DNA of 36,995 bases from Clostridia bacterium (GTDB taxonomy: Bacteria > Bacillota > Clostridia > Oscillospirales > Acutalibacteraceae), in assembly GCA_017473435.1 (NCBI GenBank), contig JAFULG010000005.1, positions 1 to 36,995 on the forward strand, given 5' to 3'. Both the position numbers and the translations under genes were made by a program. Position 1 is the first letter of the stretch. Each line of letters opens with the position of its first letter. Below the pieces are notes generated by a model, which saw only the letters and a program-made list of their open reading frames with translations, made no database searches and had not been told where the DNA came from. Shown here one piece after another: positions 13,713 through 35,187 of this stretch.

Positions 13713-13834
13713 CTTGCCTCTCCCTTCGGGAGAGGTGGCAGACCGAAGGTCTGACGGAGAGGGTGTTCTGCGCTTTCATATTGTTGCAAATAGCCCTCTC
13801 AGTCACTTCGTGACAGCTCTCCCAAAGGGAGAGC
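13713..13834. repeat. Two-armed hairpin repeat element (family A), complete copy
   Basis: The left arm 13713-13763 holds two hairpins, CCTCTCCC-TTC-GGGAGAGG and CAGACC-GAA-GGTCTG, then CGGAGAGGG. The right arm 13794-13834 is the inverted counterpart, CCCTCTCAGTC then GTCACTTCGTGAC and CTCTCCC-AAA-GGGAGAG. The spacer is 30 bp. The 51-bp left arm recurs perfectly at 14299-14349. Related elements flank dnaX. Confidence 0.85.
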
Positions 13835-14298: not shown

Positions 14299-14349
14299 CT
14301 TGCCTCTCCCTTCGGGAGAGGTGGCAGACCGAAGGTCTGACGGAGAGGG
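14299..14349. repeat. Half copy of hairpin repeat family A upstream of DUF559
   Basis: A perfect 51-bp direct repeat of 13713-13763, with both hairpins. It has no right arm. With 13713-13834 it brackets the DUF559 gene as direct repeats. Confidence 0.9.
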
Positions 14350-14386
14350 CACAACAGCATTATACCACAAACAATTCCCAAAAGTA

Positions 14387-14418
14387 AACAAAAAAAGAGA
14401 GCTGTTGCCAACTCTCTT
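14387..14418 (-). terminator. Terminator of the 39-residue peptide gene
   Basis: On the minus strand a 10-bp stem AAGAGAGTTG / CAGCTCTCTT (one G-U) with a GCAA loop is followed by a run of six to seven U. It is a strong intrinsic terminator 45 bp after the small gene's stop. Confidence 0.85.
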
Positions 14419-14462
14419 AAATGTTTTTTTCATTGTGTAATAACCTTATTATGAGAAAAGGA

Positions 14463-14582
14463 TTATTCCTTTTCGGGTTCGATATTATCGTTTTCGGGTT
14501 CGATATTATCGTTCTTTTTAAATAAGGAAATGAGATTCATAATGAAATCAATCAAAGCTTTGATATAATCCATGTAACTCAT
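14463..14582 (-). CDS. 39-residue amphipathic peptide
   Basis: A short gene. It starts at ATG 14582 with a GGGGGAG site about 8 nt upstream and ends in TAA at 14463. The product begins MSYMDYIKALIDFIMNLISL, a hydrophobic/amphipathic helix, then FKK, then two copies of a 7-residue unit NDNIEPE encoded by a 21-bp tandem repeat, and ends KE. It has its own consensus promoter (14620-14648) and its own terminator (14395-14418), so it is a single-gene transcript. The helix resembles that of the peptide at 17851-17979 (xxA-IDF-xxxL). Function is unknown; a membrane-active or membrane-associated small protein is plausible. Such peptides can be modulin-like or toxin-like, but nothing proves this. Confidence 0.75.
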   Translation of the reverse strand: MSYMDYIKALIDFIMNLISLFKKNDNIEPENDNIEPEKE

Positions 14583-14619
14583 TGGTCGCTCCCCCTGTCT
14601 GTTACTCTAATACATATAA

Positions 14620-14648
14620 AGTATACAGTACAAGTGTGAATTTGTCAA
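14620..14648 (-). promoter_or_regulatory. Consensus sigma-A promoter of the 39-residue peptide gene
   Basis: Read on the minus strand: TTGACA, exactly 17 nt, TATACT. The start would be near 14613, leaving a 5' leader of about 30 nt that contains the GGGGGAG site. This near-perfect promoter supports the small gene as real and well expressed. Confidence 0.8.
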
Positions 14649-14762
14649 CATTTTGTTTAAAAAATTTTCATTTTTTTAAAAATAATACTATAAAAATTTT
14701 TGGTTTTTACTGAAAAACACAATTAACACATTCAAATCAGTTAATAAATTATTAACTGAGCG

Positions 14763-15833
14763 TTATCCTGTGATTTCGGCTTCGGAGACTGAAATCTCGT
14801 CGGGGTTTTCTATAATTACCTCGGCTTCCTCGGGCTTTTCGGATTTCTTTCTCTTGAAGCGGTTTTTCCAGCTTTCCTTCTGCTGCTCATCCTCATCGGT
14901 GGGATTTATAACAACAGGTCTCGGAAGAAAGTGATCGCTGTCGGGCACGTAAAGCTCAACGGCACGCTCAAGCACATTGATTCTTACCTCGCGGTGCTTG
15001 CCTGCAAACTCACCGTCAATTGTCCAGGGTACATCCTCTTCAAGGGCGGTGATTTTAAGCTTGTTGGTGCTGAACATGATGATTTCCTTGCCGTCATATT
15101 TCTGATAGATTGTTTTGTACATCATGGGAAGAAGCTTGAGGGGAGTGAAATCCTTTACAAGGATAACCTCAAATTTACCGTCGTTGAATTTCACCTGATC
15201 CTTGGGCAGGGTAATTATACCGCCGACGGAAAGGGAGTTTGAAACAGCACCGAAAACAAACTTGCCCTCGATGACACCGCCATCATATTCCACTCTCATT
15301 TTTATGTTATGCAAGTTTTTCACGTCGGCAACACCTGCGGCAATATAGGCTGCTCTGCCGAACATATTTTTAAGCTTCTGATTAGTTGCATAGGATGCGG
15401 CGGCAAATGCACCGAAGGATGCAACGTAGGAGTAGTATCTGTTGTTGAAAAGACCGATATCATAATCATTGGGCTCGGCGGTTGCAATAAGATTAGCAGC
15501 CTCTTTTTTGTCTGTGGGGATGTGGAGTGACTTTGCAACATCGTTGGTTGTACCTGCAGGAATGTAGCCTATGGGTACACGGCGGGGCATATCCATTACA
15601 CCGTTGATTGTTTCGTTAAGAGTTCCGTCGCCGCCGCAGCATACAACAAGCTCGTGGTCTTCGAGCTCATTTTTAACAATGTTTGTTGCGTCGCCCTGGC
15701 AGGTAGTTTCGTGTACGGAAAATTCAAAATCACTGCCTTCAAAGCTTTCGGTAATTTCTTCTGCACTCGCTCTTGAGCTGTTTTTACCTGAGCGGGGATT
15801 TATAATGAGTAAAGCCTTCTTTTTGTTATCCAT
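14763..15833 (-). CDS. Diacylglycerol kinase-family lipid kinase (YegS/DgkB-like)
   Basis: A 356-residue protein with the diacylglycerol kinase catalytic fold. Seen: LLIINPRSGK at the N-terminus, the nucleotide-binding VVCCGGDGTLNETINGV, GYIPAGTTNDVAKSL, and the C-terminal TIDGEFAG block typical of the DgkB/YegS/LCB5 group. It would phosphorylate diacylglycerol or a related lipid at the membrane face. The last approximately 45 residues are charged and disordered (KRKKSEKPEEAEV). The start is ATG at 15833. It appears monocistronic, with about 570 bp to the next gene upstream and the small peptide transcript downstream. Confidence 0.9.
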   Translation of the reverse strand: MDNKKKALLIINPRSGKNSSRASAEEITESFEGSDFEFSVHETTCQGDATNIVKNELEDHELVVCCGGDGTLNETINGVMDMPRRVPIGYIPAGTTNDVAKSLHIPTDKKEAANLIATAEPNDYDIGLFNNRYYSYVASFGAFAAASYATNQKLKNMFGRAAYIAAGVADVKNLHNIKMRVEYDGGVIEGKFVFGAVSNSLSVGGIITLPKDQVKFNDGKFEVILVKDFTPLKLLPMMYKTIYQKYDGKEIIMFSTNKLKITALEEDVPWTIDGEFAGKHREVRINVLERAVELYVPDSDHFLPRPVVINPTDEDEQQKESWKNRFKRKKSEKPEEAEVIIENPDEISVSEAEITG

Positions 15834-16154
15834 AAATATATCCGTGGCCGATAGAGGCCTTTCCTTTCGGGTAATGGGATTCTTTTTTGTGTCATAATTT
15901 TAACACCTGCATAAAATATTGTCAAATGAATAATTTTTAAAAAACAGAGTGGCCGCTCTGCTTATTTTTTTGAACGGATTTTTAACAGCTTGTTTTTCCA
16001 CAATATCTTGTGCTTTTTTTATGGCGCGAAAAAAGCATACTTGTTCGAGAGATGAGTAAAATCGGATTTCGTTGTGCAAAATAAACAAAATTTATCAAGA
16101 AAATACTTGCAGATTAACCAAAAGGTAGAACCGTATTTTTTTGAAGAAAAAGTA

Positions 16155-16183
16155 TTGATTTTTTTCTGAAAGTGTTGTATTAT
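16155..16183 (+). promoter_or_regulatory. Predicted sigma-A promoter of the MATE leader RNA
   Basis: TTGATT, 17-nt spacer, TATTAT; predicted start about 16190. It lies in the 575-bp gap between the lipid kinase and MATE genes. I see nothing coding in the rest of the gap (15834-16150). Confidence 0.65.
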
Positions 16184-16189
16184 TACTTT

Positions 16190-16317
16190 GCAATCGAGAG
16201 AGGTTGCAACACAAAAGCGAAGCGCAAAGCTTCGGACTTAATTAAGATTTCTCCACTATAATGTTTTCTTCATATTTTCTCCTTTTAAAAGCACTCGGTT
16301 TCTCCCCGGGTGTTTTT
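16190..16317 (+). ncRNA. Structured leader RNA or small RNA upstream of MATE gene
   Basis: Between a good promoter (16155-16183) and an intrinsic-terminator-like hairpin lies about 128 nt without coding content. Structure seen: a 6-bp stem GCAATC/GGTTGC (16190-16207), a second stem CGAAGC-GCAAA-GCTTCG (16218-16234), then a pyrimidine-rich stretch and the hairpin CACTCGG/CCGGGTG at 16292-16312, followed by TTTTT. The MATE start is about 95 nt further on. This is the layout of an attenuating riboswitch or of an independent small RNA. I do not recognise the class. Confidence 0.5.
16291..16317 (+). terminator. Intrinsic terminator/attenuator before MATE gene
   Basis: The stem CACTCGG pairs with CCGGGTG (one U-G pair) and is followed by five T. 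It lies between the predicted promoter and the MATE coding start, so readthrough would be needed for expression from that promoter. Confidence 0.65.
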
Positions 16318-16409
16318 AATTTGTAAAAGCAAATTTACAGGCAAGCAGCAGGATAAAGACCTGGCCAATTGCGTAATCAATAAAGCTCCCTGAAAGGTTG
16401 TGAGCCCCT

Positions 16410-17768
16410 TTGAAAAAAGAACGTTCAATGCTGACGGGCAACCCCATTAAAACAATAATCCTTTTTGCTTTGCCGATTATGGCGTCCTCAATGCTTCAGT
16501 ACAACTATTCACTGGTTGATAATATTATCGTTGGCAGATATGTAAGCAATGAAGCACTCGCTGCCGTCGGAAGTGTCGGATCAATCAACTCCTTTATAAT
16601 CGGTGCGGCGCTGGGACTTACAAGCGGCTTTTCAATTCCCGTTACCCATGCCTTCGGTGCAGGCGACGGAAGAAAAGCAGGACGTTTTGCCGGTAACAGT
16701 ATAAGCCTTGCCTTTATTATAGGAAGCGTGATAGCGGTTGTTGCCCATCTTTTGTCAACGCCTCTTCTTAAGCTTATAGGAACTCCCGGGGAGATTATTG
16801 ATCTTTCCTCTGCATACCTTAATATACTGTATTACGGTATACCTTTTCAGATGCTTTCCAACAACTTCACCGCTATTTCAAGAAGTGTAGGAGAAAGCAA
16901 AAAGCCTCTGTACTTTTTCTCCTTCACCGTAGTGCTCAACTTTTTTCTTGATGTTTTGTTTGTAAAGACATTTTCGTGGGGAGTTGAGGGTGCGGCTTTA
17001 GCAACACTTATATGTCATATAATTGCGGCGGCGCTTAACGGCGGCTTTGTGCTTTTCAGACTTAAAAAAATACATATCTCAAAATACGATCTTATCCCCG
17101 ATATGAAAATTTTCCGTAAGCAGATAATGCTCGGTATCCCTGTTTCTCTGCAGTTTACTATGACATCGGTAGGATCAATGTGTCTGCAGAGCGTGGTTAA
17201 CTCCTTCGGCACAAATGTCATTGCCGGCTTTACTGCCGCCGGCAGGGTAGAGGGCATCACCAATATCCCGATGTCGGGCCTCGGCGTTGCCACCCAGACC
17301 TTTGTAGGACAGAACTACGGTGCAGGCAATTATAAGCGTATACGTGAAAGCGTAAGGCGGATATTTATTCTTGACCTTGCCGTTTCAGTAGTGATGAGCA
17401 TAACCCTTTATCTTATTTCAGAGCCTGTTATAATGCTCTTTATGGAGGAGTTCAACCCCGAGATTATGGCGGCGGCAAAAAGATATATCCTCGCAATAGC
17501 TCAGTGCTACAGCCTTGTTGCTGTGCTTTTTGTTATGCGTAACACTCTGCAGGGACTCGGCTTTACCTTTGCAAACTCCGTTGCAGGTGTAGGGGAGTTT
17601 TTCGGCAGACTGCTTGTTGCTTTTATACTCACCCCTGCTCTCGGCTTTGATGCCGTATGCTATGCAGGTCCTGCGGCATGGCTGCTTGCGGATGTCCCCT
17701 TAATCATTATATATATTTACAATGTAAAAAAGAAAATGACTACAAAAGAAGAAATATTGACTTGTTAA
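16410..17768 (+). CDS. MATE-family multidrug/metabolite exporter
   Basis: A 452-residue inner-membrane antiporter of the MATE family with about 12 hydrophobic segments. Family marks are the N-terminal MLTGNPIKTIILFALPIM pattern, the NYSLVDNIIVGRYV segment of helix 1-2, and the second-half repeat with VATQTFVGQNYGAGNYKR. It would export drugs or metabolites using a Na+ or H+ gradient. The start is taken as TTG at 16410, because relatives carry the Lys/Arg-rich stretch before the D/S-M-T-x-G-N-P motif and a GAAAGG lies upstream. ATG at 16428 is the alternative. Regulation by the upstream leader RNA is possible. Confidence 0.9.
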   Translation: MKKERSMLTGNPIKTIILFALPIMASSMLQYNYSLVDNIIVGRYVSNEALAAVGSVGSINSFIIGAALGLTSGFSIPVTHAFGAGDGRKAGRFAGNSISLAFIIGSVIAVVAHLLSTPLLKLIGTPGEIIDLSSAYLNILYYGIPFQMLSNNFTAISRSVGESKKPLYFFSFTVVLNFFLDVLFVKTFSWGVEGAALATLICHIIAAALNGGFVLFRLKKIHISKYDLIPDMKIFRKQIMLGIPVSLQFTMTSVGSMCLQSVVNSFGTNVIAGFTAAGRVEGITNIPMSGLGVATQTFVGQNYGAGNYKRIRESVRRIFILDLAVSVVMSITLYLISEPVIMLFMEEFNPEIMAAAKRYILAIAQCYSLVAVLFVMRNTLQGLGFTFANSVAGVGEFFGRLLVAFILTPALGFDAVCYAGPAAWLLADVPLIIIYIYNVKKKMTTKEEILTC

Positions 17769-17772
17769 CATA

Positions 17773-17801
17773 TTGACATTTTGTTCATTTTATATTAAAA
17801 T
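17773..17801 (+). promoter_or_regulatory. Consensus sigma-A promoter of the 42-residue peptide gene
   Basis: TTGACA, 17-nt spacer, TAAAAT. It begins a few bases after the MATE stop codon; predicted start near 17808, about 43 nt before the ATG at 17851. Confidence 0.75.
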
Positions 17802-17850
17802 ATTTTACAGTAAAAGAAATGTTCAAATATACAAAAAGGAGGATATAACA

Positions 17851-17979
17851 ATGGATAACGCATTCTACAATTTTTTCCAGACATATTATGATGATATCGT
17901 AGCTTTCGTAAGAGCAATGATTGATTTTGTCAAGTCACTTTCAGCAAAGCTCGGCGGCGACGCGGAAGCAACAGAATAA
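17851..17979 (+). CDS. 42-residue amphipathic peptide
   Basis: The start is ATG 17851 with a perfect AGGAGG 8 nt upstream (17837-17842). A longer frame opening at a TTG (17773) overlaps the promoter and is rejected. The product begins MDNAFYNFFQTYYDDIVAF, continues VRAMIDFVKSLSAKL and ends in an acidic tail GGDAEATE. It has an aromatic N-terminus and an amphipathic helix, and no classical signal peptide. It has its own promoter (17773-17801) and a terminator 12 bp after the stop. The helix resembles the 39-residue peptide at 14463-14582. Function is unknown; a small membrane-associated peptide is likely. Confidence 0.75.
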   Translation: MDNAFYNFFQTYYDDIVAFVRAMIDFVKSLSAKLGGDAEATE

Positions 17980-17990
17980 TGTAATAAAAA

Positions 17991-18016
17991 AGCCTTCCGT
18001 CGGGAAGGCTTTTTTT
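17991..18016 (+). terminator. Terminator of the 42-residue peptide gene
   Basis: AGCCTTCC, GTCG loop, GGAAGGCT, followed by TTTTTT. A textbook intrinsic terminator, 12 bp after the stop codon. Confidence 0.95.
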
Positions 18017-24420: not shown

Positions 24421-24549
24421 GTCACGAAGTGACCCGAAGTATTTGCCGCAAGGCGAATATTTCACACCGACAAAGTCGGTATTTCATATTGCGAAAGCAA
24501 TATTTCACCTGACCGAAGGTCAGATTTCATGCAATGCCGACGGCATTGC
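24421..24549 (+). repeat. Array of six hairpins separated by ATTTCA linkers
   Basis: In order: GTCAC-GAA-GTGAC; TTGCC-GCAA-GGCGA (with one wobble); ACCGAC-AAA-GTCGGT; ATATTGC-GAAA-GCAATAT; CTGACC-GAA-GGTCAG; GCAATGCC-GAC-GGCATTGC. The linkers are mostly ATTTCA(C). The stems differ completely in sequence but keep near-perfect pairing and a short, purine-rich loop. It fills the space between the ssrA promoter and mature tmRNA. Confidence 0.85.
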
Positions 24550-24557
24550 CTCTATAC

Positions 24558-24904
24558 GGGGATGAAAGGATTTCGACGGGGATTCTGAACCACGATAAGC
24601 GGGTAGTGGAGTGGCACCACTATAAAAGTCACACGTTTAAATAATAAACGACAACAATACAGTTTTAAAGGCTGCTTAATGCGGCCCGTCTTGGTTAAGA
24701 GTACTGCGGCTTAACTAAAGGCGTCGATCAGCAGTGAACGTGAACGGCAGAGCGCCTTGTATGCCGTCATGCATCAAAGGCTACCAAGCTCTCAAGCCTG
24801 TCAACCGGCGTGAGGGTGAGGGAATGTTAAAAGACTGACTGCACCCGGAGAAGGTTGTGCGGATGGGTTTTCGGACGCGGTTTCGATTACCGCCATCTCC
24901 ACCA
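24558..24904 (+). ncRNA. ssrA: Transfer-messenger RNA
   Basis: The tmRNA that rescues stalled ribosomes and tags proteins for proteolysis. The 5' end GGGGATGAAAGGATTTCGACG is diagnostic and pairs with 3' CATCTCC (acceptor stem, one G-U), then discriminator A and an encoded CCA at 24902-24904. The T-arm GGTTTCGATTACCGCC is seen at the 3' end. The tag frame ends AAC GAC AAC AAT ACA GTT TTA AAG GCT GCT TAA (24647-24679), giving NDNNTVLKAA, with the preceding codon (ATA) as a possible resume codon. The final AA fits ClpXP-type tags. Length is 347 nt. Confidence 0.95.
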
Positions 24905-27330: not shown

Positions 27331-30300
27331 ATGAGAATTTTAAAAAAAACTTTGGCAGTATTTTTGGTGATTATCACTCTTTTCACAACTTTTTCATTGG
27401 TAATGCCTGTTTTTGCACAATACAAAGCAGAAATCGAAGCGGATACCGAAATGGAGATCGTTGATGAAGAAAAAGAAGCACACATAATTTCAGAAGTTAT
27501 TGACAAAAGAACAGAGAACACAAAGCAGTTCCTTATGTCTGACGGATCATATGTTCTGGCACAATATAATTCATCGGTCCATTACCTGACAGATGAAAAT
27601 GAATGGGCGGATATTGATAATACACTTTGTGAGAATGCTGCCACTACGGTTCAGGCTGAGGTCTTTGGACAGAGCAATATTATCAGAACAAAAAGCGAAG
27701 AAACAAATATCGTTTTTGCAGAAAAAGCTAATTCAAATACTCTTGTGTTTTTCGATGATGAAAAATATCCGATTTCTTTGAATTATCAGAGTATGAAAAA
27801 CAGCCGAGCTGAAATTACGGAAAAATCAACGGAATTTCAAGGTGATGAAGCATTTCTTAATCTTTCACATCTTACCGATGAAATCATTTATGAAGATGCA
27901 TACAAAAATGTTGATTTGCAGTATTTAGTTTCATCAAACGGCATTAAGGAGAATATCATACTTAAAAATGCAACTGCTCAAAACAGTTTTGTTGTAAACT
28001 ACAACATAGGAGAATTAAGCGCAAAGGCGATTTCAAAAAACGAAATACACTTAACCAACGGAAAAGATGTAATATATGTAATATCTGCTCCTGTTATGTA
28101 TGATGCAAACGGTAATACAAGTTCAGAAATTGAGCTTGACATCACAAAAAACAAGAACGGAAAGCTTCGTTTTGAAATTCTTCCTGATGAAAACTGGCTT
28201 TCAACTGCAGTTTATCCCGTTACAATCGATCCCTCAATAATCGATGCTAAAGAATACTCGATTAGCGGCATATGCGTAAACGGTACTTCAACAAGTACGA
28301 ATAATTTCACTTTAACTTACGGAAGCACTTCCTATGCGCTTCTTGATATTCAAAAAAGTGAAGCCAATGCCTTTGTTGACCATGTTGTTTCAGCAATGCT
28401 TAATTTACCTGTAGTTTCCGGCTCTGTAACATCTTCAAGCAGAGTTTGTGTACGAGAAATTACTGAAGATTGGAAAAATGATGGTGCAATTACGAATGCA
28501 AATCCCGTATGTGCCACAACAATTGAGGATTATTCAAGTGTAAATGCAACAACAGACAATCTATCTTTTGATCTCACTAGATTGTATCACAAGTGGGAGA
28601 ATGGCGGAAGCAACGAAGGTATTAAGCTAGAAATGGGAGCTTCGGGAAGTGTACGTTTTGAAACAACATCCACTGAACCGCTATTAACTGTTCAGTATAT
28701 GAACACTTGCGGACTTGATTCATCAATGCCTTATACAGAGTTTGATATGGGCAGTGCAGGTTACATATATGTTAATAACTACAGCGGAAACCTTGTGCTG
28801 ACAAGAGATAACGATATTTCGACAACAGGTGAAGAATATCCTTATAATTTTTCAATGACCTATAATAGTCTGGCTGTTGTTGATGAAGACTATTCTTATT
28901 GGCTTCCAAGCTATATGTCAGGCTTCAGCACATCTTTTATTTATACAGCTCCCGACGGAACACAGCAACTTTTCGTTCAAGGTGAAGATACTTTAAAAGA
29001 AGATTTCTATATTTTAGAAAAAAATGATTATGGTTGGGAATGTCTTGAAGCAACTGAAAAACGGAGCTTTACATTTCCGATTGTCGGAGCCACAATTAAA
29101 ATACCTATTGCTTTCGATGCGTGTAAAAACAACTGTACCGAAAAGTATTCGTTTAATGCAAGTGGGTTACAGAAAATTACAATTGGTGAAAAACTTTGTT
29201 CGGATGAGCCAAAAAACGAAAGAGTAATACTTTCACGTGAAAAAATTGAAGGATCAAGTAGTTTTTATCTTGTTGATGGTAGTGGCGACAAGTTACTTGT
29301 ATCTTCTGCAGATGGCTTATACTCTGTAACTTCGATTGATATTAAATCCAATGGCACGAGTACAACAGAAGAAACATTGATTTACCAAAAGGATGAAAAT
29401 GGAAATGTAACACAAATTGTTCACAATAATAAGGTCGAGGCGGTTTTCACTTATGATGCTTTAAGTCGCATTACATCAATTACAAATGATTCGGGTTATA
29501 AATTAACTTTCGGTTATGTTAACGAGAGCAGAAGAGTTGCATATGTTGGTGAAAGTAAAAATAACGAGTTAGGCAGAGAAGTTTCTTTTGAAAGAGGATG
29601 CAATAACACGGTTACAAGAACTTCAGGAGCTAATGGTATATTTGGCGATGCTGATGACCTTTTAACCACCTATGTGTATAATAACAAAGTACAGGTTGTT
29701 TCAACTCAATGTGAAACAGTTGGCAGCGAAACAATTGAGAGTGAAAAGCTTGGAGCAGTAGGGCTGGAACGGAGTTCACAAAGTAAAATTCCTGATTCTA
29801 TTTCTAAAGTGCACGCAGAAGGAAAAATACCTGACAATGTTATTAAAAACCATAATGTTGAAAGCACACAATATTGGTCACCTATTCTGCTTGATGATTC
29901 GAATTGTGTAAATACAAAAAATTACACAACAGAGGAAGCTTATGTAGGAGAAGGCTCTTTGAAAATAAAAATTGAAAATCTTGCTTCTAGCGGTGCAGCA
30001 GCGTTTTATCAGAATTTAGATTTGAATGACGGGGCTGTTGAAAAAGGCGAAACATATACTTTCTCGGCATATGTTAAAACGAACGGTATAACTTATGATT
30101 CTAATTCAAGTATAAATCAAAACTATGGTGCAGCATTGATGATGCGAATAGCAAAAACTGACGGTACGGTTGAACGGATTTATTCTTCGCACGTTCAAAA
30201 AACAAATTATGATATAAATAATGGTTGGGAAAGAGTCTTTGTTACGTTTACATTACCCAAAAATACAGCAAGTGTGATTGCATTTGTGCTTGTTAGAAAC

Positions 30301-33300
30301 GGAATTGGTACAGGGTATTTTGACGGTGTGCAGCTAGAGAAGAGTGAAGTTGCAAGTCAGTATAATATGCTCGAAAATAACGGTTTTAATTTTGTTGAGT
30401 CTACAGGTTATGCATCCTCATGGAACAGATGGAATATGAGCTCATCTGATGTTGTTGTGGACAGTAAGATGCAGATTGCCGGAAGTCCGACGCACCAAAA
30501 GGCGTTGATACAAGAGGTTAAAGTAAACGAAAAGGATTATGACGATAAATTTATCTTTGGCGGTTGGGCTGAAGCTGTGCCGTTGCCTAAAAAGGTAACG
30601 AGGTATTACAGATTGCATGTTATTGTATTCTATAAGGAAACCAAGAGTGACGGAACTCCGGAAAGCTATGTTCCTGCTTGGGCTGAGTATGATTATTACA
30701 ATGACGGAACGCAGTTTACTAGCGGTAGCTTTGGCTTAAGGCATCCTGAGCATCCTGAATATACACCGGATAAAATCCGTGTAGTATGTTGTTATTATAA
30801 TCAGGCAAATACGGCATGTTACGATTCAATAAGGCTTAGTAAATCATCTGATGTGTATGATCTTAATGAGATGTATGGGGATGCAGCGGATACGAATACG
30901 GAAACAGAGCTTGATCCATACACCTACGACGAAAATGGAAGAGTTCTCACCTATACCGATGAAGAGAGCGTGGTTTATTCCTATTCATACAACGCCTACG
31001 GTGATGTTGTTTCAATTCTGAACGCAGACGGTGAAGGTGACAGGTTTGAATACAACACTTATGATACAGACGGTGACGGAAGCTACGACACAACCCGAAT
31101 AAGAAAAGAAACCTATGCAGATGGCACGATTTACGAATATACTTATAACAGTGCTCTTGAAATTACAAAGGAGACCGTTACTATTCCTAATTCCGAGGGT
31201 GAACCAACTGTTGAGGAGTATAATTACGACGAAAACGGGAATTTGGATACCCACGTTGTTGACAATGAAGTTAAATCCAGTTATACTTATATTAAACCTA
31301 ATAATAATTGGCTTATTGCAACAGAGACAAGCAATGGTTATAAAACGACCTACACTTATAATCCTGAAACTGACGAACTGGTGAGCAAAGTTAAATCACC
31401 GTCAGATAATGTTGATGTTGTAATTGAAAGTGACAGCTATGAGTATTCAGACGGTAATGTTACAAAGCATACCCACACGGAAAACGGCACATCCCTAACC
31501 TATCATTACGGTACAAATGGAGAGATATCCAAGGTCGAACATAACGGTTTTGCATATAATTATGAATATGATGCTTTTTCCAACACAACAAGCGTTAAGG
31601 TGGGTGACCAGAGCCTTGTCGGTTATACTTATCAGCAGGACAAGTCAAAGGTTGCTTCAATGACCTACGGCAACGATGACAAGGTAACTTATACTTACGA
31701 TAATTACGGCGGTATCAGTAAAAAGACAGTAAGTGATAAAATCAGTGACGGTAGCACAAAGGATCATTATTATACTTATTTCACTGACGGTGAGGGTAGA
31801 ACTGTTTACGAAGAGGACAGTCCAAGTCATCAGGAAACTTATTACCTTTACGATGATGAAGGAACGCTTTACGGTGAAAGAGTCAACGCAACAACGACAA
31901 ACAATACTTATCGAAATCGGCTTTATGAGGTTATAAATAATTTCGATGACAACGGAAATGTTGTCAAAAACGCCTTGAGAAGTCAGTCGGGCTTATTGAC
32001 AACTTATTATGCTTATGATTCCGTAACAAATTTACCGTCAAGTATAACACTTTTTGGCGGAAAACAGGTTTCATACAACTATGACGATGAAGGTACACTC
32101 ACAGGCAGAAGTCTTTCGACAAGTACTCCTGTTGCGGAGGGCTTTAACTACAATGATAAAGGTCTGATTTCGACACATACCATTGCTCTCGGAACAAATA
32201 GTGATGTTTATTCGTATACTTATGATGATAATGCAAACATTACTGAAATTAAGCTTGGCGATACGGTTCAGCAGAGCTATGAATATGATGCGTTAAATCA
32301 GCTCATAAGAGAAAATGACCGTGATACGGGTAAGACTGTAATTTACAGTTACGACGGCTACGGAAACATCACATCAAAGACTGAATATGCATTTACATTA
32401 GGTGAGCTTGGAGCTGTTGTTGATACTATCAGTTATGCTTACAATGACACAGCATGGAAGGATAAGCTGACAAGCTATGACGGACAGGGCATAACCTATG
32501 ATGAAATCGGCAATCCTACAAGCTATATGGGTGCTGATATGACTTGGGCAGGTCGATACCTTACATCATATGTTAAAGGTAACACGGCTGTTTCATATAC
32601 TTACGATTCTGACGGTTTAAGAACAAGCAAAACAGTCAATGGTGTCAAGCATAACTACTACTACGTTGACGGACAACTTCGTTACGAAAGAAACGGCGAT
32701 AACTACGAAATCTATTACACTTACGATGCTGACGGCAGACCCGTGCTTGCAACAAAGCGTGACCTTGTTGCAAAGAAGAATTATCAGTATTATCTCATAA
32801 CAAATACCCGTGGTGATGTTATTGAAACACGTGATGATTACGGTAATGTTAATGCAAAGTTTGTTTACGATGCTTGGGGTAAATTGATATCTGTAACGGA
32901 TGCTAACGGTAACGCACTCTCAACAGACAGCTTTGCTTATCAGATAAGTCTCAAATACCGTGGATATGTGTATGATAATGAGACGAGTTTGTATTATCTG
33001 CAGAGTCGCTATTATGACCCGGAGACGGGTAGGTTTTTGAATGCGGATGATGTGGAGTGTATTGGCTTATTGAATACAATGTGTTCCTTAAATTTGTTTG
33101 CTTACTGTGGAAATCAGCCAGTTGATCGATATGATTATAGTGGACTTTCGACAGTGTATACTTTAAGCAATGGATGGAAATATAGGATAGATCCACCAAA
33201 TACATCAACTAAGACGAAAAGACATATTCATATTTATAAAGATGGATATAATTATTCACAAAACGATGATGGTTCTCCTCATGATGGAAGTTCAGATGAA

Positions 33301-33525
33301 CCGCCGAACAGTGTGAAAAAAGAGTTGAAAAATAAAGGCGTGTGGGATTGGGATGCTAAGGCAAAAGAATACAATGAATCTTTAACCAACAATGGTTTGG
33401 AGCCAGTACTTAAAGCTTTAAGAGTAGTTATTATTATATATGCTGTATATAGAATTGTAAGGTTATTACCTTCTTTTCTTCCCGGTTTGCGCTGGACTTT
33501 ACCTGGAAATGTAGCATTTGCTTAG
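27331..33525 (+). CDS. Secreted RHS/YD-repeat polymorphic toxin-like protein
   Basis: A 2064-residue exported protein. Residues 1-30 form a signal peptide (MRILKKTLAVFLVIITLFTT... VFAQ). Residues about 300-460 resemble a DNRLRE-type domain. A carbohydrate-binding-like domain lies about 845-1010 (YVGEGSLKIKIEN ... GTGYFDGVQLEKS). YD repeats (YDENGN, YTYDxxG and variants) run through about 690-740 and then 1190-1880. The RHS-associated core motif YYLQSRYYDPETGRFLNADD is near residue 1890. The final approximately 140 residues after YDYSGLS form a variable tip with HIHIYKDGYNYSQNDDGSPH and a final hydrophobic stretch. Such proteins deliver a C-terminal toxin to neighbouring cells. The tip's activity is unknown. 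A good AAAGGAG site precedes ATG 27331. Confidence 0.9.
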   Translation: MRILKKTLAVFLVIITLFTTFSLVMPVFAQYKAEIEADTEMEIVDEEKEAHIISEVIDKRTENTKQFLMSDGSYVLAQYNSSVHYLTDENEWADIDNTLCENAATTVQAEVFGQSNIIRTKSEETNIVFAEKANSNTLVFFDDEKYPISLNYQSMKNSRAEITEKSTEFQGDEAFLNLSHLTDEIIYEDAYKNVDLQYLVSSNGIKENIILKNATAQNSFVVNYNIGELSAKAISKNEIHLTNGKDVIYVISAPVMYDANGNTSSEIELDITKNKNGKLRFEILPDENWLSTAVYPVTIDPSIIDAKEYSISGICVNGTSTSTNNFTLTYGSTSYALLDIQKSEANAFVDHVVSAMLNLPVVSGSVTSSSRVCVREITEDWKNDGAITNANPVCATTIEDYSSVNATTDNLSFDLTRLYHKWENGGSNEGIKLEMGASGSVRFETTSTEPLLTVQYMNTCGLDSSMPYTEFDMGSAGYIYVNNYSGNLVLTRDNDISTTGEEYPYNFSMTYNSLAVVDEDYSYWLPSYMSGFSTSFIYTAPDGTQQLFVQGEDTLKEDFYILEKNDYGWECLEATEKRSFTFPIVGATIKIPIAFDACKNNCTEKYSFNASGLQKITIGEKLCSDEPKNERVILSREKIEGSSSFYLVDGSGDKLLVSSADGLYSVTSIDIKSNGTSTTEETLIYQKDENGNVTQIVHNNKVEAVFTYDALSRITSITNDSGYKLTFGYVNESRRVAYVGESKNNELGREVSFERGCNNTVTRTSGANGIFGDADDLLTTYVYNNKVQVVSTQCETVGSETIESEKLGAVGLERSSQSKIPDSISKVHAEGKIPDNVIKNHNVESTQYWSPILLDDSNCVNTKNYTTEEAYVGEGSLKIKIENLASSGAAAFYQNLDLNDGAVEKGETYTFSAYVKTNGITYDSNSSINQNYGAALMMRIAKTDGTVERIYSSHVQKTNYDINNGWERVFVTFTLPKNTASVIAFVLVRNGIGTGYFDGVQLEKSEVASQYNMLENNGFNFVESTGYASSWNRWNMSSSDVVVDSKMQIAGSPTHQKALIQEVKVNEKDYDDKFIFGGWAEAVPLPKKVTRYYRLHVIVFYKETKSDGTPESYVPAWAEYDYYNDGTQFTSGSFGLRHPEHPEYTPDKIRVVCCYYNQANTACYDSIRLSKSSDVYDLNEMYGDAADTNTETELDPYTYDENGRVLTYTDEESVVYSYSYNAYGDVVSILNADGEGDRFEYNTYDTDGDGSYDTTRIRKETYADGTIYEYTYNSALEITKETVTIPNSEGEPTVEEYNYDENGNLDTHVVDNEVKSSYTYIKPNNNWLIATETSNGYKTTYTYNPETDELVSKVKSPSDNVDVVIESDSYEYSDGNVTKHTHTENGTSLTYHYGTNGEISKVEHNGFAYNYEYDAFSNTTSVKVGDQSLVGYTYQQDKSKVASMTYGNDDKVTYTYDNYGGISKKTVSDKISDGSTKDHYYTYFTDGEGRTVYEEDSPSHQETYYLYDDEGTLYGERVNATTTNNTYRNRLYEVINNFDDNGNVVKNALRSQSGLLTTYYAYDSVTNLPSSITLFGGKQVSYNYDDEGTLTGRSLSTSTPVAEGFNYNDKGLISTHTIALGTNSDVYSYTYDDNANITEIKLGDTVQQSYEYDALNQLIRENDRDTGKTVIYSYDGYGNITSKTEYAFTLGELGAVVDTISYAYNDTAWKDKLTSYDGQGITYDEIGNPTSYMGADMTWAGRYLTSYVKGNTAVSYTYDSDGLRTSKTVNGVKHNYYYVDGQLRYERNGDNYEIYYTYDADGRPVLATKRDLVAKKNYQYYLITNTRGDVIETRDDYGNVNAKFVYDAWGKLISVTDANGNALSTDSFAYQISLKYRGYVYDNETSLYYLQSRYYDPETGRFLNADDVECIGLLNTMCSLNLFAYCGNQPVDRYDYSGLSTVYTLSNGWKYRIDPPNTSTKTKRHIHIYKDGYNYSQNDDGSPHDGSSDEPPNSVKKELKNKGVWDWDAKAKEYNESLTNNGLEPVLKALRVVIIIYAVYRIVRLLPSFLPGLRWTLPGNVAFA

Positions 33526-33556
33526 ATTTTTAAATTTTTGTTTGAGGTGAATTATT

Positions 33557-34009
33557 TTGCGATATTTCAAATACGAATTATGGAAAAATTCAACAGAAGA
33601 GACTGAGGCGAGATTGTGGAATGAAAATTCACATAGGTATTACAATTATTTTAATTCGATCAAGAAATTTTTTTCAAATGATTTTATTAATTCGTACTTG
33701 AACTTTAAAGGATTTCATGATTATAAAATACTATCAATAAGATATGCTGATGCCGAATCTGTGTGTGTTGAATTGAAAAAAAACAAAACTAAAATAGATA
33801 TAAGATATGAAGGTGTAAAAAGTTTTTCTGTTGATTTTAATAATTGTTGTAATGAATTACAAATTGGAGATTTGCCTGAATGGGGATACGATGAATTTTA
33901 CAAGTTGAAAGATAATTATTTTACGCACTCTGTTATTACCTCTTCGGGTATTGAAATAGAAATTGGTTTTAAGAAGATTAGTGTATTAATTAGGGGTAAC
34001 ACAGAGTGA
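33557..34009 (+). CDS. Candidate immunity protein or RHS-linked hypothetical
   Basis: A 150-residue protein of unknown family, 31 bp after the RHS gene. The start is TTG 33557 with GAGGTG 7 nt upstream; no ATG is available in the N-terminal region. The product begins MRYFKYELWKNSTEETEAR and is aromatic-rich and soluble with no signal peptide, as immunity proteins to RHS toxins usually are. Position right after the toxin tip is the whole argument for this role. I do not recognise a domain. Confidence 0.6.
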   Translation: MRYFKYELWKNSTEETEARLWNENSHRYYNYFNSIKKFFSNDFINSYLNFKGFHDYKILSIRYADAESVCVELKKNKTKIDIRYEGVKSFSVDFNNCCNELQIGDLPEWGYDEFYKLKDNYFTHSVITSSGIEIEIGFKKISVLIRGNTE

Positions 34010-34037
34010 CCACCCACCGATGACCACTAAAAAGAAA

Positions 34038-34128
34038 AACACAGGGGGGACGGTACTGTGTGTTAACCAAAAACAAATAACCACGGTGATTTGGGCGGTG
34101 CGTTGGCAAAAGTCACGCACCACCCACC
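34038..34128. repeat. Hairpin elements at the junction before the orphan RHS tip
   Basis: Two structures: AACACAGGGGGGACGGTACTG then TGTGTT (34038-34064, stem ACACAG/CTGTGT) and GGGCGGTGCGT/ACGCACCACCC (34093-34125, one mismatch). The motif AACACAGGGG(GG)ACGGT recurs at 36074-36087. The unit resembles short GACGGT-type palindromes dispersed in clostridial genomes. The region is GC-rich and unlike the DNA on either side. Confidence 0.7.
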
Positions 34129-34140
34129 CCGCGCCCTTGA

Positions 34141-35187
34141 ACAAGCAAAACAGTCAACGGAGTAAAGCACAACTATTACTACGTTGACGGACAGCTTCGT
34201 TATGAAAGAAACGGAGATAACTACGAGATTTACTACACTTACGATGCTGACGGCAGACCTGTGCTTGCAACAAAGCGTGACCTTGTTGCAAAGAAGAATT
34301 ATCAATATTATCTCATAACAAACACACGTGGTGACATTATTGAAACACGTGATGATTATGGTAATGTAAGTGCTAAGTTTGTTTACGATGCCTGGGGTAA
34401 GCTGGTTGCAGTAACAGATGCTAACGGCAATGCGCTTTCAACGGATAGCTTTGCTTATCAGATAAGTCTCAAATACCGTGGATATGTTTATGATAATGAA
34501 ACCGGTCTCTATTATCTGCAAAGCCGCTATTATGACCCGGAGACAGGAAGGTTCCTGAATGCGGATGATGTTGGCTTTATCGGATATTCCGGCGAGCAGT
34601 TGTCTTATAATGTGTTTGCGTATTGTGGAAATGAGCCAGTATGCAATTGCGATATTAGTGGTAAAATAAAAGTCAAAATAACATACAGGCGTAATTATAT
34701 AGACGTATATAAATATAAATTCTCTATTACGGGGCATATCGATTTTTCAATAAACGGGAAAATATACTCATTTGGTTCAAATAGTGCACCATATAAACAA
34801 AAATTACAAGGCACTGCGGCCGGTTACTTAAGAACTAGCAGTGTTCTGTATTGGCATACGGATGAAGAAATGATTTGTACTGGAAAGACAAGAGTGTGGA
34901 TGACTGATGATGAATTTATAACTTTAATTACTTCATTGACGGTATTTATGTCTACTTGTGTTTCAAAAGTGAATGAAAGCAAAGATGCAAATATTAAAAT
35001 GTTTAGAGTAATCAGGGGGAGATATTCATACTACAGTTTTACCAAAGCGAACTGTGCAACTTTTGTAAGGGATATAGTGATTAGTAGTATTCCAGATTTA
35101 GCAAAAAAATACAAAAGTGTATATTCAATGCTAATAATTCCAGCTAACGTATACAAGGTTATTTCTTCATGGGGGACTAAAATATGA
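34141..35187 (+). pseudogene. Truncated RHS tip cassette (orphan C-terminal toxin module)
   Basis: The frame from 34141 is a close copy of 32622-33050 in the main RHS gene (TSKTVNGVKHNYYYVDGQL, ... YYLQSRYYDPETGRF). It is open to the stop at 35187, but a stop codon stands just before it and there is no RHS start, so it is a 5'-truncated cassette. A GTG at 34261 could start a shorter form (308 residues). The new tip (about 175 residues after NCDISGKIK) has GHIDFSINGKIYSFG and KANCATFVRDIV, the His and Asn-Cys pattern of permuted NlpC/P60- or papain-like hydrolases. It may serve as a donor tip for recombination into the main gene. Confidence 0.8.

Follow-up and report, generated by a model that had tools for sequence, protein, structure and literature searches.

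The stretch of DNA analysed here, called the window throughout, comprises 36,995 nucleotides and is contig C16 of a 91-contig, 2.56-Mb assembly of a Clostridia bacterium. It carries two genes for short peptides, P1 and P2, with a lipid kinase and a MatE protein located between them. The features, with the basis of each assignment in brackets, are as follows.

14463-14582, minus strand: P1, gene for a leaderless amphipathic peptide of 39 residues (open reading frame, homologues, substitution pattern, AlphaFold)
14620-14648, minus strand: P1 promoter, TTGACA-17-TATACT, 11/12 (promoter scan and homologues)
14589-14595, minus strand: P1 ribosome-binding site, GGGGGAG (sequence reading)
14395-14418, minus strand: P1 intrinsic terminator (folding z -3.55)
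14462-14513, minus strand: 21-bp tandem repeat, whose product is the NDNIEPE repeat in the acidic tail of P1 (repeat analysis)
17851-17979, plus strand: P2, gene for a leaderless amphipathic peptide of 42 residues (open reading frame, homologues, substitution pattern, AlphaFold)
17773-17801, plus strand: P2 promoter, TTGACA-17-TAAAAT, 11/12 (promoter scan and homologues)
17836-17842, plus strand: P2 ribosome-binding site, AAGGAGG (sequence reading)
17986-18015, plus strand: P2 intrinsic terminator (folding z -5.53)
14763-15833, minus strand: DagK/YegS-type lipid kinase, directly 5' of P1 (Pfam DAGK_cat and YegS_C)
16410-17768, plus strand: MatE exporter, 5' of P2 on the same strand (Pfam MatE)

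The original prediction had described two solitary genes for related amphipathic peptides, and their open reading frames, near-consensus promoters, ribosome-binding sites, terminators, acidic tails and tail repeat were all located as it claimed; the Pfam matches bear out the bracketing of a lipid kinase and a MATE exporter. Judged by these signals, P1 and P2 are separate transcription units, each with a near-consensus vegetative promoter, a ribosome-binding site, an open reading frame and a terminator. Promoter-like sites matching at least 9 of 12 positions are frequent between 13500 and 18800 (28, with 11.6 expected), and only three reach 11/12, two of them the P1 and P2 promoters. An upstream site with at least 10/12 matches to the vegetative consensus is present at 29/29 P1 and 20/20 P2 loci, a score reached by 6.8% and 7.4% of dinucleotide shuffles, respectively; at all 29 P1 loci the match is 11/12 or better. 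Terminator-like hairpins lie within 100 nt downstream at 27/29 P1 and 17/20 P2 loci, compared with 7 of 400 random 100-nt stretches of the window. P2 has the full AAGGAGG ribosome site, P1 the weaker GGGGGAG. The P1 tail repeat comprises 2.4 copies at a 21-bp period, and no such repeat was seen in the other P1 tails of the alignment.

High-expression signals, also part of the prediction, did not extend beyond promoter and ribosome site, and codon choice shows no sign of high expression. C-ending codons make up 7/19 in P1 and 7/17 in P2, small numbers to be set against fractions of 0.65-0.71 in proS, ileS and GDH; some peptides of the tandem array described below are nearer than P1 and P2 to the codon use of strongly expressed genes.

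Conservation and physical nature of the peptides

A single-sequence search with P1 gave matches in 30 of 34 congeneric genomes at E<=1, the weakest being those in G007 (E 0.05) and G030 (E 0.04), both of which retain the core motif; P1 was missing in G005, G006, G027 and G033. P2 was found in 20 of the 34, the window's own genome included, its weakest matches (G019 and G030, E 0.2) having been accepted by motif, start and signals. Before counting, two rows (L002, L020) were removed from the P2 list, and L057 (G028), which lacks a start codon by our rule, was removed from the start-based P1 set. Named relatives of the window's genome are uncultured Clostridia and Oscillospiraceae from ruminant rectum, caecum and rumen. 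In codon alignments, nonsynonymous divergence was below synonymous divergence (pN<pS) in all 406 P1 pairs and all 190 P2 pairs, and the close pair G016-G012 differs by one nonsynonymous and seven synonymous changes. The coding frame is thus conserved in relatives and substitutions are biased to synonymous sites, as the prediction had required, and this pattern shows that purifying selection acts on P1 and P2 throughout a genus of gut Clostridia. Small RNA genes with chance open reading frames might likewise present as strong promoter-terminator units of about 150-200 nt; contradicted by the substitution pattern and the conserved frames, this explanation has a negligible probability.

The proposal of an undescribed family is supported as far as the searched libraries go: P1 and P2 have no match in Pfam or NCBIfam at E<=1, nothing in PHROGs, and no relative among PDB sequences (best E 0.18 and 0.42). 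Searches of Pfam, NCBIfam and PHROGs with a further ten and three peptides gave nothing above cut-off. In IMG/VR, 30 stretches matched the P1 alignment and none was confirmed, while neither P2 against phage records nor P1 against plasmid records gave a match at E<=0.1. Because the searched libraries hold no model for them, such genes are likely missed by annotation. Word searches of the open-access literature found no paper on these peptides, which does not show that none has been printed.

AlphaFold models P1 as a helix at residues 3-25 (mean predicted local distance difference test score [pLDDT], 75.6) and P2 as helices at 4-11 and 13-34 (mean pLDDT, 84.4), both with an unstructured tail. 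Helical hydrophobic moments exceed those of shuffles, with a median z of 2.4 for 29 P1 peptides and 2.9 for the P2 group (21 peptides, one of them a paralogue), so that the amphipathic helix proposed earlier is borne out at the level of prediction. In the P1 alignment, the only invariant residues are an adjacent Phe-Lys pair. A 19-residue hydropathy above 1.6 was reached by 9/29 P1 and 3/21 P2-group peptides, which makes a membrane-spanning peptide doubtful. By eye, and with no predictor run, neither a signal peptide-like stretch nor a Gly-Gly leader was seen.

Whether P1 and P2 are related, as originally stated, is less clear. Scored with the P2 profile, P1 peptides reach a mean of 8.8 bits, compared with 1.4 (standard deviation 0.6) for shuffles that keep the hydrophobic/polar pattern, so their likeness exceeds what that pattern alone explains, but the profile-profile probability is only 33%. 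A relationship is therefore plausible, not proven.

Two kinds of known small proteins bear on these properties. Leaderless bacteriocins are likewise small and several per genome; however, P1 and P2 peptides are acidic, not cationic (net charge, median -2 and -6; a few members reach +2) and their loci have no constant immunity or ABC-exporter neighbour. We consider a bacteriocin identity very unlikely, and a cationic bacteriocin is a poor fit by net charge. Short hydrophobic open reading frames with solitary promoters could also point to type I toxins restrained by antisense RNA, and one antisense promoter-like site (10/12) does lie inside P1, at 14542-14569 of the window. Yet antisense sites of at least 10/12 within the reading frame plus 60 nt were found at only 2/29 P1 loci (0.5 expected) and 0/20 P2 loci (0.7 expected); with no conserved antisense gene by this promoter test, the toxin model fits poorly and is, if anything, the more improbable of the two.

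A genus-level repertoire and its genomic settings

The two genes look real, but the picture of a solitary pair was incomplete: they belong to a larger, genus-level set of peptide genes that comprises several families, some of them arranged in tandem arrays. A pattern of promoter, ribosome site and ATG was found at 69 sites in the window's genome and at none in the control. Seventeen of these sites lead to open reading frames of at most 75 codons, and 13 of the 17, assigned by eye and by moment, are such peptides (moments 0.54-0.71; remaining four, 0.34-0.53). Four genomes of other genera contain 144 sites with the same pattern; a sample of 30 yielded eight reading frames of at most 75 codons, none of this peptide type, and the top moment among those of at least 18 residues was 0.51, in a DNA-binding-like protein. 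An array on contig C71 of the window's genome (L147:4425-6302) comprises five transcription units and eight amphipathic peptides, three units encoding two each. Among 62 genus loci, chosen for holding hits, we counted 71 short units, nearly all of this type. Two of the profiles used, A1 and A2, include sequences later found by them, which makes two genus-wide numbers partly circular.

Searched over 398 genomes, the P1 profile was strong only in the genus, in six of its seven genomes there. The best match elsewhere was a family of peptides of some 32 residues (core QKLIDFIMxII) in 8 of 11 genomes of one other genus (E<=4.1e-4); its similarity to P1 is weak, and no relative of the window's kinase lies within 1.5 kb of its loci (L310-L319). 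We also observed a solitary 44-residue Gly/Ala/Val-rich peptide (MKNPFD...), conserved in the genus (L176:8743-8877, L177:2516-2650, L178:2507-2641).

The setting of P2 is variable. MatE directly precedes it at 6 of 20 loci and lies 1.7 kb away at a seventh, so the bracketing by kinase and MATE genes holds as a conserved context for the kinase, a constant companion of P1 only, and not for MatE. With adjacency at only these six loci, a functional P2-MATE pair was rejected. At 5/20 loci (G007, G008, G009, G021, G025) P2 flanks a phage-head module, and in G032 it lies 2.8 kb from one.

A third family, with an N-W-x-x-I-V-x-F-F-D-K-type core and profile-related to P2, adjoins the small terminase gene of this module in 13 genus genomes. 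In the window's genome, peptide and module together span L374 5805-12948, and the module itself is as follows.

L374:5805-12639, contig C6: nine-gene phage-head module with TerS, TerL, portal, capsid and other genes (PHROGs and Pfam)

PHROGs and Pfam name its terminase subunits, portal and capsid, and three of the nine proteins have no match. Inspection by eye revealed neither an integrase nor a lysis or tape-measure gene next to the module at L374; its flanks are presumably mfd at one end and, at the other, genes for an ABC transporter, aspartokinase and homoserine dehydrogenase, names we recognised only. The 34 genus genomes contain 14 copies of a 23-base palindrome, TTTTAAAATTT-N-AAATTTTAAAA, 13 of them directly behind a third-family gene and the 14th behind a peptide-like frame interrupted by a contig end; one copy is at L374:12979-13001. 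A conserved 5' hairpin in the third family depends on four pairs from a loose alignment and carries no weight in our analysis.

The gene arrangement of the module is similar to that of FpGTA I of Faecalibacterium, a compact operon of gut Oscillospiraceae/Ruminococcaceae that contains TerS, TerL, portal, scaffold and capsid genes (PMC12946183); the likeness is one of arrangement. That paper mentions no amphipathic peptides or small proteins in its text. NW-type peptides, which are related to P2, stand next to the small terminase gene in 13 genomes, and five P2 loci flank a module. This raises the possibility that the peptides are accessories of a gene-transfer-agent-like particle, for example release or membrane-handling factors, with P1 and P2 as relocated copies. 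Several observations speak against it. The module is family-wide (TerL homologues in 251 of the 398 family genomes), yet none of 24 modules inspected outside the genus carries such a peptide at TerS, so the module predates the peptides. Even within the genus, the peptide stands beside TerS in only 4 of 6 unselected modules. Linkage to the module is not constant, involving no P1 locus and only the 5/20 P2 loci, and in the window neither gene is near a module, while both promoters look constitutive. We have marked gene transfer down on the 24 modules without the peptide and regard this reading as about as improbable as a bacteriocin identity.

Three further observations in the window stand apart from the peptides. 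Similar intergenic inverted-repeat stretches (CTCTCCCTTCGGGAGAGG...GACCGAAGGTCTGACGGAGAGGG), recognised by eye, lie around 13715-13775 and 14300-14350, with a like stretch in L241. Rfam, run on the window and four loci, found within the window only tmRNA (24558-24904), signal recognition particle RNA and a Gut-1 RNA (RF01706, 60.5 bits; 24454-24532, minus strand), the last of these next to the tmRNA. At 27331-35187, judged by eye, a large YD-repeat-type protein (2064 amino acids) is followed by a reading frame that repeats its core end with a different tip.

P1, the lipid kinase and a proposed membrane-surface role

Upstream of P1, on the same strand and within 1.5 kb, 27 of the 30 loci carry a gene homologous to the window's kinase. 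Its stop codon precedes the P1 start by 140-330 nt in the 26 genomes measured, 180 nt in the window. Outer gene order is not kept: grouping by eye gave at least eight clusters of reading frames beyond P1 and at least seven beyond the kinase, called mechanically, so that some may be spurious. As a control, we scanned 27 kinase loci from other genera of the family for a promoter, ribosome site, reading frame and terminator in that order. None was found behind the kinase in the 26 testable loci (the 27th has only 109 nt there); the one hit, upstream of a kinase, has a moment of 0.36 and is not amphipathic. The same scan recovers 27 of the 30 P1 loci. The idea that P1 is a broken-off kinase tail was rejected, as kinase tails are variable and charged, with no P1-like helix seen by eye.

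The best reading of these data, to which we assign a probability of roughly 0.4, is that the peptides, leaderless and about 30-45 residues long, reside in the membrane surface, P1 probably acting together with DagK. After translation, the helix would partition in plane into the surface of the cytoplasmic membrane, where it might alter lipid packing or recruit a partner. For P1 that context or partner would most likely be the kinase encoded just upstream, a step for which there is less ground than for in-plane binding. The kinase would convert diacylglycerol to phosphatidic acid at the inner leaflet, and P1, whose Phe-Lys pair would sit where the helix meets the boundary of membrane and water, may bind or sense these lipids or help to keep the kinase membrane-bound. 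P2 and the peptides of the arrays would act in parallel as surface-active peptides that have no fixed partner. Vegetative-type promoters and constant single-copy retention are easier to reconcile with a housekeeping role than with an arms race. SpoVM, a protein of about 30 residues with a single amphipathic helix lying in plane at the membrane surface, offers a parallel in size and helix placement, by description only; unlike it, the peptides here have vegetative-type promoters.

Several points weigh against this reading. G005 and G006 have the kinase, at about 63% identity, but no P1, so P1 is not required by every kinase, and G020, G023 and G030 have P1 without a nearby kinase. P1 has its own promoter, by which co-regulation with the kinase is not implied. 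The acidic net charge of the peptides does little to favour binding to an anionic inner leaflet. Moreover, the reading is built from sequence and prediction.

The main alternative is that the peptides are released leaderless surfactants resembling phenol-soluble modulins, made in quantity, exported without a leader and serving as surfactants or acting on neighbouring cells. Staphylococcal phenol-soluble modulins are leaderless and short, form an amphipathic helix and occur as several paralogues per genome, all of which is true of the peptides described here. In length, moment and structural model, and in the absence of a leader by eye, the latter correspond to leaderless amphipathic helices of about 20-45 residues; they share with modulins the rarity of Cys (0/29 P1, 2/21 P2-group peptides), and their strong promoters, several paralogues and tandem and paired units likewise speak for this class. 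One array peptide gave a sub-threshold hit to the NCBIfam delta-lysin-type modulin model, at chance level (E 0.45; 9.9 bits, with a cut-off of 68). However, neither P1 nor P2 matches a curated modulin model (NCBIfam and Pfam, E<=1), and no sequence relationship exists at NCBIfam thresholds. Other differences are the own promoter of each gene, the acidic tails and the tie of one member to a lipid kinase. No constant exporter neighbour was found at P1 and P2 loci, in an analysis that included no genome-wide exporter search; MatE has the inconstant adjacency to P2 noted above and is, to our knowledge, not known as a peptide exporter. P1 is single-copy, syntenic and slowly evolving, and the codon use of P1 and P2 is unlike that of abundant proteins. 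Release of this kind is a possibility that we hold doubtful, though far from negligible. It differs from the intracellular reading in where the peptide resides.

The nearest report we know of is a MetaRibo-Seq study in which two Clostridiales-specific families of 29 residues (386917 and 386898) reportedly were the most highly translated proteins of the data set (PMC7324362); they can be set beside the present peptides by description only.

It is tempting to speculate, more tentatively than on membrane-surface residence itself, that the genus possesses a private, genome-wide set of solitary genes for leaderless acidic amphipathic peptides, which in the window's genome numbers at least 13 promoter-driven units of several families, tandem arrays and two-peptide transcripts among them, and that one member has become a fixed kinase companion and tunes diacylglycerol/phosphatidic-acid turnover at the membrane surface. 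If true, it would represent a new mode of membrane-lipid control by peptides in bacteria. In gut and rumen bacteria that are themselves abundant, these genes are numerous and conserved and have near-consensus signals; were expression to match the strength of the promoters, surface-active peptides of this kind would have consequences for the physiology of the membrane, for neighbouring cells and for the host. The fixed pairing of kinase and peptide provides a concrete gene pair with which to ask what a solitary amphipathic peptide does.

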